Notes under the pieces: model-generated
Seen by the model: only the letters and a program-made list of their open reading frames with translations
What the model was told of the DNA's origin: nothing
Databases searched by the model: none
Translations under genes and position numbers: made by a program
From: Chryseobacterium lactis
GTDB lineage: Bacteria > Bacteroidota > Bacteroidia > Flavobacteriales > Weeksellaceae
Length of the DNA: 64,000 nt
NCBI RefSeq assembly: GCF_003815875.1
Contig: NZ_CP033924.1
Coordinates: 4,960,001 to 5,024,000, forward strand
Direction of reading: 5' to 3'
Shown here: positions 42,013 through 46,159 of the stretch, one piece after another
Layout: the number at the start of each line of letters is the position of its first letter
Numbering within the stretch: the first letter of the stretch is position 1

Positions 42013-42364
42013 AAATATTGTTAAATGTTAAACTTAAAATCACAAACATACTTATTTGCAAACACTTACAATATTTCTATTTCATCACAATCGTTTATTA
42101 AATCATTCCGATTTTACCTCCATAAAAGCATCAATGAATTTATATTATTCATAAAAATTTAACCTTATTTTATCTTTTCTATAATACGTTTTAATATGCA
42201 TTTCAATCCATATTGAATTAAAATTTTATATAAACTTCAATTTACTACTTCCATTTCACACAGAATAAAAATATAAAACACTGTATTTAAACAAATTAAA
42301 TCATTAACAATAAATTAATATACAAATTCCCTACTTTTTTAGTGGACTAATAAAAATTATATTA
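42013..42364. other. AT-rich intergenic region upstream of the met leader
   Basis: About 350 bases of very AT-rich sequence with no ORF, hairpin or repeat I can support. It separates the minus-strand SDR promoter from the plus-strand leader promoter. Confidence 0.4.
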
Positions 42365-42372
42365 TATATTTG
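42365..42372 (+). promoter_or_regulatory. -7 element of the EamA-metNIQ leader transcript
   Basis: TATATTTG matches TAnnTTTG and lies 26 bases before the leader ORF start at 42398, giving a very short 5' end on the leader. The expected -33 region is AT-rich without a clear TTG. Confidence 0.5.
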
Positions 42373-42397
42373 CACCGTATTCAGGAAAAAAAATAAA

Positions 42398-42496
42398 ATG
42401 AAGGCAGTATTAAAGAATAATTCAATAATAAAACACAGCATCAAAAAAATGATGATGGCTACCTGTATGCCTATGTATCAGAAATGCTGTGGGTGA
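42398..42496 (+). CDS. Met/Cys-rich leader peptide (putative attenuator ORF)
   Basis: A 32-codon ORF between a promoter element and a terminator, upstream of a methionine transporter operon. Residues 18-31 read MMMATCMPMYQKCC: five Met within nine codons (18, 19, 20, 24, 26) and three Cys (23, 30, 31). The N-terminal half is Lys/Asn/Ile-rich. Its UGA stop at 42494 sits inside a possible antiterminator: GTGGG (42489-42493) and CCTTAC (42497-42502) can pair with CCCTAC and GTAAAGG (42519-42531), which overlap the 5' arm of the terminator. This is the layout of ribosome-mediated attenuation. Translation is not demonstrated; a bioactive short peptide is the alternative. Confidence 0.65.
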   Translation: MKAVLKNNSIIKHSIKKMMMATCMPMYQKCCG

Positions 42497-42520
42497 CCTT
42501 ACTTTTATATGACATATTGT

Positions 42521-42551
42521 AAAGGCCCTACCAAGTTGTAGGGCCTTTTTT
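42521..42551 (+). terminator. Leader terminator (attenuator) upstream of EamA-metNIQ
   Basis: AAAGGCCCTAC and GTAGGGCCTTT form a perfect 11-bp stem around CAAGTT, followed directly by TTT. It is 24 bases after the leader stop codon and 33 before the EamA start, so the operon can only be transcribed past it or from an internal promoter, and there is little room for the latter. Confidence 0.88.
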
Positions 42552-42583
42552 ATTGAAAAACAAACAACATTAAAAAAATAAAA

Positions 42584-43579
42584 ATGAGTAATTCTAAAAA
42601 CAAATGGTTGATTCCATTGGCTTTTACAAACATCTATGTAATATGGGGGATTACGTTTTTAGCTATTTCATTTGGCTTGAAAGGTTTCCCGCCATTCATT
42701 CTTTCGGGATTAAGATTTCTGGTTGCAGGAATTTTAATGATGAGCTATCTTCTTTCTAAAGGGGAAAAAGCAAATTCGCTGATCAACTGGAAGAAAAATG
42801 CAATCACCGGAGTTCTTATCCTCACGGGAGGAACAGGGCTTGTAGCCTGGGGAGAACAATATGTAACGGCCTCAGAAGCTGCCATATCTATCGCAACAGG
42901 TCCGTTTTGGTTCATTGCAATTGACAGAAAAAACTGGAAATATTATTTCTCGGATAAATTCATACCTATAGGATTGGCAATAGGATTTGTAGGGTTGGTA
43001 TTCTTTTTAAAAGGAAGTGTACACTCAAGTGCAGCCCATTCAATGGTGAACGGAAATCTTCGTATTACTGCATTTATAGTATTAGGATTAAGTTCTGTTG
43101 CCTGGGTTCTGGGATCTTTATATTCTAAGAAAAATCCGGCCTCACATTCTACTTTTATGAATATTGCTCAACAGCTTATTGTAGCAGGATTAGCCTCTTT
43201 TTTCATCGCTTTTGTAAGAAAAGAATGGACTGGTTTTTCAGTTTCTGCGATCCCATTATCGGCATGGTTGGGAGTTCTGTTTTTGATCTTCTTTGGATCT
43301 ATAGTCGCTTATTTGTCGTACATTTGGCTCTTGTCCGTGAAACCCGCTGCTCTGGTAAGCACCCATACCTATATTAATCCTATTGTTACAGTGATTGCAG
43401 GCTGGATTGTTGCCAATCAAAGCATCAACGGAGGTCAGCTATATGGTTTATCAATCATTTTGCTGGGAGTATTGCTGACGAATGTTACCAAGTACTTTAA
43501 ACTTTCAAAACGGTCAAAGGTTAAATTAAGAAGAGTAAGAAGATTTTTTAAGGCAGGCAAGCGCTATCAGCCTATCTAA
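42584..43579 (+). CDS. EamA/DMT family permease
   Basis: A 331-residue inner-membrane protein with about ten membrane helices in two EamA repeats. IYVIWGITFLAISFGLKGFPP opens the first, and the second runs from about residue 155. A basic C-terminal tail (KRSKVKLRRVRRFFKAGK) stays in the cytosol. DMT permeases export amino acids and metabolites. Cotranscription with metNIQ, 19 bases downstream, suggests export or balance of methionine, cysteine or a related compound; this is inference from context. Expression likely depends on the leader terminator. Confidence 0.88.
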   Translation: MSNSKNKWLIPLAFTNIYVIWGITFLAISFGLKGFPPFILSGLRFLVAGILMMSYLLSKGEKANSLINWKKNAITGVLILTGGTGLVAWGEQYVTASEAAISIATGPFWFIAIDRKNWKYYFSDKFIPIGLAIGFVGLVFFLKGSVHSSAAHSMVNGNLRITAFIVLGLSSVAWVLGSLYSKKNPASHSTFMNIAQQLIVAGLASFFIAFVRKEWTGFSVSAIPLSAWLGVLFLIFFGSIVAYLSYIWLLSVKPAALVSTHTYINPIVTVIAGWIVANQSINGGQLYGLSIILLGVLLTNVTKYFKLSKRSKVKLRRVRRFFKAGKRYQPI

Positions 43580-43598: not shown

Positions 43599-44627
43599 AT
43601 GATAGAAATCAGAAACATATCAAAAACGTTTCACCAGAAAAAACAGTCTTTCAAAGCACTGGATCAGGTGAGCCTTACTATAGATAAAGGAGATATTGTA
43701 GGAATTATCGGATTTTCAGGTGCAGGAAAAAGCACTCTGATCCGTACGGTAAATTTATTGGAAAAGCCGGATCAGGGACAGGTGATTATCAATGGAAAGG
43801 ATTTTACCCAATTAAGCTCAAAGCAACTGGCCGAAGAGCGTAAAAAAATAGGAATGATTTTCCAGCATTTCAATCTTCTTTCTTCAAGAACCGTTTTTGA
43901 TAATATAGCACTTCCTCTGGAACTGGATCATCTCAGCAAAGAGCAAATCAATAAAAAAGTAAATGAATTATTGAAAATCGTAGGCCTTGAAGATAAAGCC
44001 AGCGACTATCCCAAAAGTCTGTCCGGAGGTCAGAAGCAAAGGGTAGCAATCGCAAGGGCATTAGCCAATGATCCTCATCTTCTACTCTGCGATGAAGCTA
44101 CCAGCGCCCTTGACCCGGTAACCACACAGTCTATCTTACAGTTGTTGAGAGACATCAATCAAAGGCTTGGCATTACCATTCTTTTGATTACCCACGAAAT
44201 GGAAGTGATCAAAGCGGTCTGCAACCACGTTGCCGTTATAGACCACGGAAAATTATTAGCAAAAGGAACTTTAAGTGAGATTATTTCGGATAAAGAAAAT
44301 CCGGTAATCCGACAATTTATAAATTCAGACGTCATGACCCTGCCACAGGAAATCAGTAACAGACTGCAGAAAGAACCAAAAGAAGGTTTGTTTCCGCTGG
44401 TCGAAATAGAACTTAACGAAAATATCAGTGTTGAACAAATTCTTTCAGCCCTATACAACCAATATAAAATTCCATATAAACTATTGAAAGCTGATGTAGA
44501 GTATTTTGGGAATTCCAATTTTGGAAAACTGCTGTTGCAGCTTCAGGGCAAAACGGAAGAAAATCAGCAGGCTATCTATTATTTCAATCAAAATAAAATT
44601 CAAAACACAGTAAAAGGATATGCTTAG
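43599..44627 (+). CDS. metN: Methionine ABC transporter ATP-binding protein MetN
   Basis: The 342-residue ATPase has Walker A GFSGAGKST near residue 36, the Q-loop in GMIFQHFNLLSSRTV, signature LSGGQKQRVAIARAL and Walker B LLLCDEATSALDP. The C-terminal NIL domain (about 265-340) is the regulatory methionine-binding domain that distinguishes MetN from other importers. It overlaps metI by eight bases, indicating translational coupling. It powers uptake of D/L-methionine with MetI and MetQ. Confidence 0.95.
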   Translation: MIEIRNISKTFHQKKQSFKALDQVSLTIDKGDIVGIIGFSGAGKSTLIRTVNLLEKPDQGQVIINGKDFTQLSSKQLAEERKKIGMIFQHFNLLSSRTVFDNIALPLELDHLSKEQINKKVNELLKIVGLEDKASDYPKSLSGGQKQRVAIARALANDPHLLLCDEATSALDPVTTQSILQLLRDINQRLGITILLITHEMEVIKAVCNHVAVIDHGKLLAKGTLSEIISDKENPVIRQFINSDVMTLPQEISNRLQKEPKEGLFPLVEIELNENISVEQILSALYNQYKIPYKLLKADVEYFGNSNFGKLLLQLQGKTEENQQAIYYFNQNKIQNTVKGYA

Positions 44628-45276
44628 TGATACGGTAATTGCTCTTTTAGCAAAAGGAGCCTGGGAAACGGTTTATATGACATTTGTTTCAGGATTTTTT
44701 GGATTTGTACTAGGACTTCCGGTGGGAATTATGTTATTTTTAACCAGAAAAGGACAACTGCTGGAAAATACGTTATACCATAGAATATTATCTGTTATGG
44801 TTAATATTTTCCGTGCCATTCCCTTCATTATTTTAATTGTATGGATGATTCCTTTTACAAGAATTTTGGCAGGAACCTCTATTGGAGTGAACGCAGCCCT
44901 TGTTCCATTAAGTGTTGGTGCAGCCCCGTTTATCGCAAGATTGGTAGAGAACAGCCTTATTGAAGTTCCTCACGGACTGATAGAAACGGCCAGAGCTTTA
45001 GGTGCATCACCTTTCCAGATTATCAGAAAAGTATTGCTTCCGGAGGCACTTCCTTCTCTCATCAATAATGCAACCATCACATTAATTACTTTAGTGGGCT
45101 ACTCTGCAATGGGAGGAGCTGTAGGAGCAGGTGGATTAGGACAGGTCGGTTACCAGTACGGTTATATCGGATATGATATTGTTATTATGAATACGGTTCT
45201 TATTTTGCTTGTTCTGCTGGTATTTATCATCCAGTTTGCCGGAGACCGGTTTTCCAAGCATTTTGACCACAGATAA
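44620..45276 (+). CDS. metI: Methionine ABC transporter permease MetI
   Basis: The 218-residue permease has five membrane segments and the MetI-type sequence GAWETVYMTFVSGFFGFVLGLP at the start. The EAA loop, which contacts the ATPase, is VPHGLIETARALGASPFQIIRKVLLPEALP. GYSAMGGAVGAGGLGQVGYQYGY is a strongly conserved MetI stretch. The start overlaps the end of metN. Confidence 0.95.
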   Translation: MLSDTVIALLAKGAWETVYMTFVSGFFGFVLGLPVGIMLFLTRKGQLLENTLYHRILSVMVNIFRAIPFIILIVWMIPFTRILAGTSIGVNAALVPLSVGAAPFIARLVENSLIEVPHGLIETARALGASPFQIIRKVLLPEALPSLINNATITLITLVGYSAMGGAVGAGGLGQVGYQYGYIGYDIVIMNTVLILLVLLVFIIQFAGDRFSKHFDHR

Positions 45277-45352: not shown

Positions 45353-46159
45353 ATGAAAAAAATAAAGATCATAGGTTTATTAACAGCAGGACTTCTTCTA
45401 TTCAATGCTTGTTCAGGGAGAAAAGATGATCCGAATTTCATCAGAGTTGGAATCACTTACGGACCGGAACAGGAAATTGCTGAAGTAGCCAAAAAAGTAG
45501 CTAAGGAAAAATACAATCTGGACGTGGAACTCATTCCTTTCAATGATTATGTCGTTCCCAATGAAGCTTTAACCAACGGTGATATTGATGTCAATGCCTT
45601 TCAGCATGTTCCTTATTTGACGGAACAATCAAAACAAAGAGGCTACAATCTTGCGGTAGTTGGTAATACTTTCGTCTATCCTATTATTGCTTATTCAAAA
45701 AAAATCAGCAATATCAATCAGTTGCAAAATGGCAATACAGTTGTTATCCCTAATGATCCAACAAACGGAGGACGTTCATTACTATTATTGCAGAAAAGCG
45801 GTTTATTAAAACTAAGAGATGGTGTTGGGCTTCTTCCCAAGGTTACAGACATCACAGAGAATCCAAAGCAGCTGAATATTATGGAGATTGAAGGTGCACA
45901 AATTCCAAGAGTTCTTGATGACAGAGATGTTGTGGTGGGAATTATCAATAACAATTTTGCGGCTCAGGCCGGTTTAGATTCAGAAAAACAAGGTATTTTA
46001 AAAGAAGATAAAGATTCCCCATATGTCAATGTAGTGGTGGCAAGACAGGACAATAAAAACAGCCAGAAAGTCAAGAATTTTGTGAAGGCTTATGAATCTG
46101 ATGAAGTAGAGAAAAAAGCAAAAGAAATTTTCAAAGGAGGAGCTGTGAAAGGCTGGTAG
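45353..46159 (+). CDS. metQ: Methionine-binding lipoprotein MetQ
   Basis: The 268-residue protein has a lipoprotein signal ending LLFNAC (Cys20) and the NlpA/MetQ fold: IRVGITYGPEQEIAEVAKKVA, then VELIPFNDYVVPNEALTNGDIDVNAFQHVPYL, and VGIINNNFAAQAGL. It captures methionine and delivers it to MetNI. It is the last gene of the operon, 76 bases after metI, and is closed by a terminator 162 bases after its stop codon. Confidence 0.95.
   Translation: MKKIKIIGLLTAGLLLFNACSGRKDDPNFIRVGITYGPEQEIAEVAKKVAKEKYNLDVELIPFNDYVVPNEALTNGDIDVNAFQHVPYLTEQSKQRGYNLAVVGNTFVYPIIAYSKKISNINQLQNGNTVVIPNDPTNGGRSLLLLQKSGLLKLRDGVGLLPKVTDITENPKQLNIMEIEGAQIPRVLDDRDVVVGIINNNFAAQAGLDSEKQGILKEDKDSPYVNVVVARQDNKNSQKVKNFVKAYESDEVEKKAKEIFKGGAVKGW

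Follow-up and report, generated by a model that had tools for sequence, protein, structure and literature searches.

A probable leader-peptide attenuator for sulfur amino acids upstream of EamA-metNIQ in Chryseobacterium

In Chryseobacterium lactis a short open reading frame containing Met and Cys codons, followed by a hairpin with a T-tract, precedes the operon EamA-metNIQ, which encodes a predicted methionine importer. This raises the question of whether translation of the reading frame decides if RNA polymerase enters the operon and, if so, which amino acid would be sensed. The window analysed is a stretch of 64,000 nucleotides from a genome of 5.6 Mb in one contig. A preliminary description of the window had pointed out a TAnnTTTG element, which we take to be the -7 element of a Bacteroidota-type promoter, a 32-codon ORF, a perfect 11-bp terminator with T-tract and the gene order EamA-metNIQ; all of these are found where they were described (Table 1), and the observation is exact to the base and far beyond chance. 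From the comparisons given below, we consider it probable (probability about 0.77) that the leader upstream of EamA-metNIQ acts as a transcription attenuator that senses sulfur amino acids through the translating ribosome.

Table 1. Features of the leader region and the operon in the window.
Feature	Position	Strand	Evidence
Predicted palindromic operator TCCCTACTTTTTTAGTGGACTAAT; genus pattern AGTCYAC-N7-GTRGACT	42328..42351	.	Conserved position
Putative promoter -7 element TAnnTTTG, TATATTTG	42365..42372	+	Read in sequence
Leader-peptide ORF, 32 codons, MKAVLKNNSIIKHSIKKMMMATCMPMYQKCCG	42398..42496	+	Present in 112/112 operon-bearing Chryseobacterium genomes
Small hairpin CATCA/TGATG over Met codons	42439..42454	+	95.6% of cells paired, 69 rows
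Control run M18 M19 M20 .. C23 M24 P25 M26	42449..42475	+	Residue conservation, 122 leaders
Antiterminator 5' strand GTGGG-TGA-CCTTAC, across the stop codon	42489..42502	+	Comparative pairing, folds
Antiterminator 3' strand GTAAAGGCCCTAC, includes terminator 5' arm	42519..42531	+	Comparative pairing, folds
Intrinsic terminator: 11-bp stem, loop 42532-42537, T-tract	42521..42551	+	69-row alignment, fold
EamA-family transporter	42584..43579	+	Pfam EamA
metN, ATPase with NIL domain	43599..44627	+	TIGR02314, 441 bits, below curated cut-off of 500
metI, permease	44620..45276	+	NF008049, above curated cut-off
metQ, substrate-binding lipoprotein	45353..46159	+	NF008285, above curated cut-off

Conservation of the leader and its control run

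The 32-residue leader peptide was used as query against 118 genomes of Chryseobacterium, the genus of the source genome, and gave a match at E≤1 in 99 of them. The leader was present in all 90 matched loci that were read, and EamA or metN sequence lies downstream in 89, the exception being a locus whose contig stops before the downstream gene. A MetI search of the remaining 28 genomes found metI in 22 (E≤1e-20), and the leader in each of these 22. Every one of the 112 operon-bearing genomes has the leader, including one in which the contig end cuts the leader, and none of the six genomes without metI has a leader; five of these gave no match, and the sixth gave a match with E 0.82 inside a 779-aa frame. 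Absence of the ORF or its Met codons from related genomes, which the preliminary description had regarded as fatal to its own proposal, is hence not what was found. A profile built from 61 leaders and run against 197 genomes of the family gave strong matches in Chryseobacterium only, and the matches in other genera (E 0.037-0.098) were not accepted. A second match of the peptide within the source genome (47% identity over 19 residues, with an internal stop) was dismissed as chance.

The EamA gene that stands between leader and metN in the window is missing from part of the genus. Among 79 named loci parsed, the leader-to-metN spacing is EamA-sized in 52, the leader adjoins metN in 23 and four are undecided; since the leader adjoins metN where EamA is missing, it belongs to metNIQ. 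The common layout in Chryseobacterium is an ORF of 31-34 codons with an M-M-(M)..C-M-P run, followed by the terminator and by EamA-metNIQ or metNIQ. The stop codon, TGA at 42494-42496 in the window, is kept (94 TGA, seven TAA and one TAG in 102 leaders), and lengths vary by whole codons with no frame-shifted leader met in the genus, a pattern that is partly one of construction, as leaders were sought as ORFs. Third codon positions of the N-terminal half differ at roughly double the rate of first and second positions (0.36 versus 0.19; 436 sequence pairs). In the control run the differences at codon positions 1, 2 and 3 are 0.18, 0.19 and 0.21, and the third-position excess is nearly gone, as would be expected from Met codons and from bases that double in pairing; the run counts as no support in this respect. 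Conservation, the kept stop and the N-terminal third positions thus point, by comparison, to a translated leader ORF.

Residues of the control run were counted from the stop in 122 leaders, a set that excludes the leader cut by a contig end. Met was found at -15 in 109, at -14 in 121, at -13 in 88 and at -9 in 116 of them, Cys at -11 in 59 and at -10 in 114, while Pro at -8 and Gly at -1 are each present in 114. Met makes up 15% and Cys 7.5% of the residues after the start, and positions -16 to -6 hold 2-6 Met and 0-3 Cys per leader. The conserved Met codons for which the preliminary description proposed an alignment of relatives are therefore there, most clearly at -14 and -9, and to them is added Cys codon 23, which within codons 18-26 is conserved about as well as the Mets. 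The C-terminal residues are variable (CCG, YCG, SRG, FSG, CGD, FRS), and the nucleotides there keep their pairing duty. Given the predicted methionine importer downstream, these Met and Cys codons are credible candidates for the control codons of an attenuator.

Terminator, competing pairing and geometry

Pairing was compared in an alignment of 69 sequences, hand-picked for spread from 115 distinct full sequences; of the 122 leaders, three in which the script found no T-tract and four duplicates had been left out beforehand. An intrinsic terminator stands before the first gene of the operon. Its arms (42521-42531 and 42538-42548) form a perfect 11-bp stem with the T-tract running to 42551, the segment 42515-42549 folds with -18.2 kcal/mol, and in the alignment 99.1% of cells are paired and 23 cells are changed on both sides. 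The spacer between stop and terminator varies in length, each value from 24 to 29 nt being represented among the 69 rows. In the full transcript the terminator was the more stable fold in seven of the eight genomes folded; as it is more stable once complete, a switch would have to be kinetic, with the antiterminator winning by forming first. The small hairpin over the Met codons showed no covariation in the 69 rows and was left out as evidence.

The pieces of the alternative stem named in the preliminary description, GTGGG (42489-42493), CCTTAC (42497-42502), GTAAAGG (42519-42525) and CCCTAC (42526-42531), are in place. Alternative pairing is supported, but the GTGGG/CCTAC pairing proposed there is a second register that is used in only part of the genus. 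In the main register GUGGU and CCUU, on either side of the stop, pair with AAGG-N4-ACCAC in the terminator 5' arm and loop. Loops of ACCAAG or ACCGAG usually go with GGG as the last codon, and in these leaders the second register GUGGG/CCUAC is used; the window is of this type, and therefore this was the register first seen. Changes on both sides that keep the pairing are GGAGU/ACUCC (L088, L114), AUGGU/ACCAU (L137), GUAGA/UCUAC (L147), GCGGA/UCUGC (L288), ACCGUGGU/GCCACGGU (L240) and the GUGGG/CCUAC rows, and at one locus (L047) the pairing is shifted one codon upstream (GUGGUGA/UUACCAC).

Over the 69 rows, 91.5% of the antiterminator cells are paired, compared with 33-54% when the partner is slid by 1-3 columns. 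In 500 shuffles, which ignore shared ancestry, none reached the observed percent paired, both-side changes (5 cells versus 0.8 in shuffles) or covariation score (0.040 versus 0.022), and the observed value for further pair types was reached in 59. Two slid controls, at -3 (0.081) and at +2 (0.048), beat the covariation score of 0.040, and two, at -3 and at -2, exceed the both-side changes (six versus five). Slid controls keep ancestry, and percent paired alone stands clear of them. The pair of alignment columns 111-158 fails in 31 of 69 rows, a part of which is accounted for by the second register, recognised after the test. Thus, of the covariation that the preliminary description expected in both stems, the terminator shows changes on both sides in 23 cells, and the antiterminator is distinguished by its percent paired, its covariation score being reached or exceeded in slid controls.

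Two further comparisons concern the same pairing. The mean best-helix score of 48 distinct strand/loop combinations was 13.6, versus 12.4 (sd 0.2) when strands and loops were re-paired, and none of 2000 re-pairings reached the observed score. For all 122 leaders, partial transcripts ending at the loop were folded, giving a mean of -8.8 kcal/mol versus -5.3 with the 5' strand shuffled; a loose criterion, at least four long-range antiterminator-type pairs, was satisfied by all 122 real transcripts, yet 1425 of the 2440 with a shuffled strand satisfied it too, so that the energy difference alone was used. Named MetI loci number 80 (78 Chryseobacterium and two Weeksellaceae bins), one of which (L321) was retrieved from its contig start onward and shows no leader in the retrieved stretch. 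On a metN-metI tree of 79 named loci, built by a quick method, the 5' strand requires at least 14 changes and the loop at least 11, and the GGG codon and the altered loop give four independent pairs, of which 3-4 agree and none disagrees (median p 0.125). This tree test is too small for significance, and the ancestry-aware support for joint changes is good, not decisive. Within these limits of the covariation, the pairing in Chryseobacterium is that predicted of an antiterminator mutually exclusive with the terminator.

A protector (1:2) stem between codons 9-17 and the ORF end was rejected (11.15 versus 11.29 shuffled; 321 of 400 as high), which speaks against the trp layout and not against attenuation; to our knowledge, such a stem is not needed in every attenuator. 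The reach of a ribosome beyond the first base of its A-site was taken as 13 nt. Of 566 internal Met codons, 564 lie more than 13 nt before the antiterminator strand, where a stalled ribosome would leave the strand free, and so do 202 of 289 Cys codons, the other 87 lying in the masked zone. The start of codon -9 is 22 nt before the strand in 119 of 122 leaders and 19 nt in three. The logic of the preliminary description, in which a ribosome at the stop masks the alternative stem and one stalled on Met codons does not, agrees with this geometry: the near-fixed distance of the Met codons would leave the antiterminator free, and its 5' strand spans the ORF end and the stop.

In the mechanism that we propose, ample Met- and Cys-tRNA would let the ribosome run to the UGA and mask the antiterminator 5' strand, which comprises the last codons, the stop and the bases that follow; the terminator would then form upstream of EamA-metNIQ. 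If charged Met-tRNA or Cys-tRNA were short, the ribosome would be stalled within the M-M-M..C-M run, some 20 nt or more short of the strand, and the antiterminator would form first and hold the terminator 5' arm, allowing RNA polymerase to enter the operon. An upstream operator, probably bound by an Rrf2 repressor, would add a second control layer. As there is no protector stem, an untranslated leader is predicted to read through, and a shortage of initiator Met would consequently act in the same direction. The comparison supports conservation, coding, the terminator, alternative pairing with coordinated changes, and the geometry; from these we infer stalling, read-through, the amino acids sensed and the protein at the operator. 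At the level of sequence, a conserved attenuator is well supported, and the signal is probably Met and/or Cys.

The sensed signal, alternative readings and upstream control

Few genomes of the phylum have a MetI match at E≤1e-30 (order sample, 52 of 346; phylum sample, 18 of 395), and the metNIQ loci of other genera, here labelled g9, g16, g17, g35 (probably Flavobacterium) and g127, were searched for leaders. In g35 a leader unlike that of Chryseobacterium precedes metNIQ in 28 of 33 metI-bearing genomes; its usual form is S-M-M-C-C-x-x-x-M, CC being present in 24 of the 27 leaders that were read completely, and it is accompanied by a predicted antiterminator core, GGCUU/AAGCC, and a terminator, the outer antiterminator stem showing no covariation (476 of 2000 re-pairings as high). 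Short Cys-Cys leaders precede metNIQ in 15 of 18 metI-bearing genomes of g9, some of them without Met beyond the start (MLKFVCCIRFI); their antiterminator folds are weak (-4.8 to -9.4 kcal/mol at the 15 Cys-Cys loci), and the fold of one locus (L282) contains none of the arm pairs. The only metI-bearing genome of g127 carries the leader MYMCCFFM. No such leader was seen by eye or script in g16 and g17 (one metI genome each) or in five of the 33 g35 metI genomes. By their sequences the leaders of g35, g9 and g127 are unlike those of Chryseobacterium, and Cys-Cys, not Met, is common to them. Since Cys-Cys recurs across genera, our reading moved from a Met sensor to a sensor of Met and/or Cys. 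The Met-sensing originally proposed is thus supported in part: Cys is about as constant as Met in Chryseobacterium and is the shared element in other genera.

This distribution also bears on whether the Cys codons are the only sensor, the Met run being secondary or pace-setting. At least one Cys lies at -16 to -6 in 121 of 122 Chryseobacterium leaders, and Cys-Cys is constant in the 15 of 18 g9 loci, often without Met beyond the start, and is also common to most g35 leaders and g127; a cysteine-only attenuator is nevertheless rather unlikely, given that in Chryseobacterium Met is nearly constant at -14 and -9, 47 of 122 leaders have a single Cys at -16 to -6, one run has four Mets and zero Cys (L005), and stalling would mask the antiterminator at 87 Cys codons but at only two Mets.

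TnaC and SpeFL are leaders with nascent-peptide arrest. A peptide containing ..C-M-P.. that responds to Met, SAM or Cys as a ligand, or stalls unaided, would agree with the near invariance of C-M-P in Chryseobacterium, with the Pro codon being CCT in 61 of 69 rows and with a conservation of residue identity that goes beyond Met count. We find such arrest distinctly improbable, as C-M-P was not seen in the leaders of g35, g9 and g127, five of the 69 rows have Ser, His, Ala or Arg in place of Pro, and the last residues vary (SRG, FSG, CGD, FRS), leaving the leaders without an arrest motif beside the stop.

The SAM-I (S-box) riboswitch (RF00162) controls methionine genes by termination, and SAM riboswitches were the alternative to be expected according to the preliminary description. 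An Rfam search of the leader returned zero families at gathering score, including no T-box match, and the conserved aptamer of the SAM riboswitch families was not found, in which the metNIQ leader differs from SAM-I. A ligand-binding riboswitch or other structured RNA that needs no translation would fit the highly conserved post-stop spacer, CCTTACTTTTATATGACATAT, and the SAM-I elements that adjoin the same operator elsewhere in the source genome, but its probability is very small, because the Rfam matches at E≤1 (MicC, Arrc14, snoZ173, SraG) are unrelated and far below cut-offs, the upstream part is coding and the RNAalifold consensus contains the terminator alone. Just as remote is a constitutive terminator whose only effect is to lower operon expression or to yield a small RNA, the small protein having no regulatory role: the terminator is indeed the thermodynamic winner in most fully transcribed folds, but the ORF end and the terminator loop change together, leader geometry is nearly fixed and leaders recur on metNIQ in four genera.

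Upstream of the attenuator proposed here, a 21-bp palindrome with at most three mismatches lies within 150 nt of the ATG in 121 of 122 leaders, starting 66-74 nt upstream of the ATG in at least 119; in a control of one letter-shuffle per leader the best match had at least four mismatches in 122 of 122. The pattern was not enriched genome-wide (19 sites with at most two mismatches versus 63 for the reversed control), and neither was a related operator pattern (57 sites with at most one mismatch versus 51), so that the case for an operator rests on its conserved place and not on counts. A similar site in the source genome adjoins an Rrf2 gene and a TauE-type exporter, suggesting that the regulator is probably of the Rrf2 type. 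Similar sites also adjoin two SAM-I riboswitches, one before a TonB-plug protein (Pfam) and the other at a TonB receptor recognised by eye. A SAM riboswitch is thus not found at the metNIQ leader, but the genome does have two SAM-I elements elsewhere, beside copies of the operator.

Significance and comparison with known systems

A wider reading joins these elements. The leader may be a bivalent (OR-gate) Met+Cys attenuator, ancient or repeatedly evolved, which ties import through metNIQ to the supply of sulfur amino acids in Bacteroidota and perhaps, with the metL leader discussed below, in Actinobacteria; lacking a protector stem, it would read through upon failed fMet-dependent initiation, and it would belong to one Rrf2-operator regulon in which some genes have SAM-I riboswitches and others (metNIQ, TonB receptor) Met/Cys leader peptides. 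We put this forward tentatively, the balance leaning slightly against all of it holding at once. If true, Bacteroidota would gain a leader-peptide Met/Cys sensor, on an importer, where riboswitches are the usual expectation, and the 122 leaders of one genus, with those of other genera, provide a natural sequence set for attenuation. Translation initiation in Bacteroidota is said to be largely without Shine-Dalgarno pairing, and the switch would offer a direct test of transcription-translation coupling in this phylum, because a polymerase outrunning the ribosome would disable it.

The trp, his, thr and ilv attenuators consist of a leader ORF with control codons, an intrinsic terminator and an antiterminator freed by the stalled ribosome, and the thr and ilv leaders sense more than one amino acid. 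The leader described here resembles them in its control-codon ORF, its intrinsic terminator and its competing antiterminator, and departs from them in its Met/Cys codons, its transporter operon, an antiterminator that overlaps the stop and the lack of a detected protector stem.

Cysteine leaders are known from other phyla. The uORFC-8-2 motif before cysS of Rhodobacterales has two tandem Cys codons followed by a terminator, as described (PMC8632094); it differs in phylum, in preceding a cysteinyl-tRNA synthetase gene, in having Cys only and in a first stem that includes codons 14-15. Leader peptides rich in Cys precede cys operons in Mycobacterium and cbs in Bifidobacterium, and these Actinobacterial leaders are, as here, ORFs with Cys runs before sulfur genes, but have no Met according to their description (PMC1262725). 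The same 2005 study reported no conserved terminator hairpin in the Mycobacterium cys leader alignments, for which Rho was suggested, and saw no RNA structure conserved upstream of actinobacterial methionine operons (PMC1262725). A T-box has been described before a methionine transporter in Lactobacillus sakei (PMC2965389). Within Bacteroidota, sORFs have been described in Bacteroides thetaiotaomicron (PMC7366714), and in Flavobacterium psychrophilum, of the same bacterial class as the present genus, leader attenuation of amino-acid biosynthesis operons was inferred from transcriptome structure, the words "methionine" and "metN" being absent from the main text of that report (PMC9723704).

The closest system is metL of Streptomyces lividans TK24, a 29-residue leader before metNIQ for which a methionine attenuator was proposed from transcriptome data (PMC8079986). 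Its start is leaderless; a typical Rho-independent terminator was not found by the authors, who regard termination as unclear and mention methionines and threonines but no cysteines, although by our own reading the printed peptide end, ..ARCMCRRMCAF, has three Cys besides Met near the stop (PMC8079986). As far as the published description allows comparison, metL and the present leader share an ORF with Met and Cys codons near the stop before metNIQ, whereas metL is Actinobacterial, with no antiterminator or comparative evidence given, and the present leader is found in Bacteroidota with both terminator and antiterminator (PMC8079986). The novelty claimed in the preliminary description is accordingly reduced by the earlier proposal of a metNIQ methionine leader in S. 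lividans (PMC8079986), and is retained for Bacteroidota, where the literature covered by the search contained no description of a metNIQ leader with Met, or with Met and Cys, codons. If our reading is true, the incomplete Streptomyces metL proposal would become one instance of a recurring Met/Cys design. In conclusion, the mechanism is a known one, and what is new is the complete anatomy of the switch, its comparative support and the pairing of Met and Cys as control codons.

Conservation within the metNIQ leader region

The stretch that follows the leader stop codon, CCTTACTTTTATATGACATAT, is conserved beyond what pairing in the antiterminator would need. Of 69 aligned leaders, 61 use CCT for the Pro of C-M-P, and the GCCU at this codon could, by prediction, form base pairs with AGGC in the arm of the terminator.

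Operator-associated loci

A second Met/Cys-rich small ORF (...CFESMTYMCTMMML) lies downstream of a copy of the metNIQ-leader operator, a 21-bp palindrome, and upstream of a TonB-plug (SusC-like) gene. It was matched in 37 of 116 Chryseobacterium genomes (search, E<=0.01); 14 of the matching loci were fetched and four of these inspected. In all four, S-M..M-C-T-M is kept near the end of the ORF, and visual inspection of the sequence that follows revealed no T-tract terminator. Other operator copies in C. lactis adjoin two SAM-I riboswitches, close to TonB-receptor-like genes. The Rrf2-family gene of locus L170 is a predicted candidate for the regulator of the metNIQ operon.

Features of the leader and of operator-associated loci (L, fetched loci)
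Feature	Position	Remark
SAM-I riboswitch	L163:1555-1650	61 bits
SAM-I riboswitch	L167:1402-1507 (-)	81 bits
Rrf2-family gene and TauE/SafE-type exporter	L170:1072-2496	on either side of operator-like site
Second small ORF	L174:1615-1776 (G000:C1:4898657-4898815)	
Post-stop stretch	window 42497-42519	
C-M-P Pro codon	window 42470-42472	

Leaders outside Chryseobacterium

In another genus (g9) with short Cys-Cys leaders before metNIQ, the leader of genome G212 (L284/L285) is without Cys-Cys, and the MetI search matched two overlapping pieces there. The metL peptide of the Streptomyces lividans metNIQ leader, on which its authors make no comment in this respect in the passages of PMC8079986 consulted, carries C-M-C..M-C close to its stop (Table 4 of that article).
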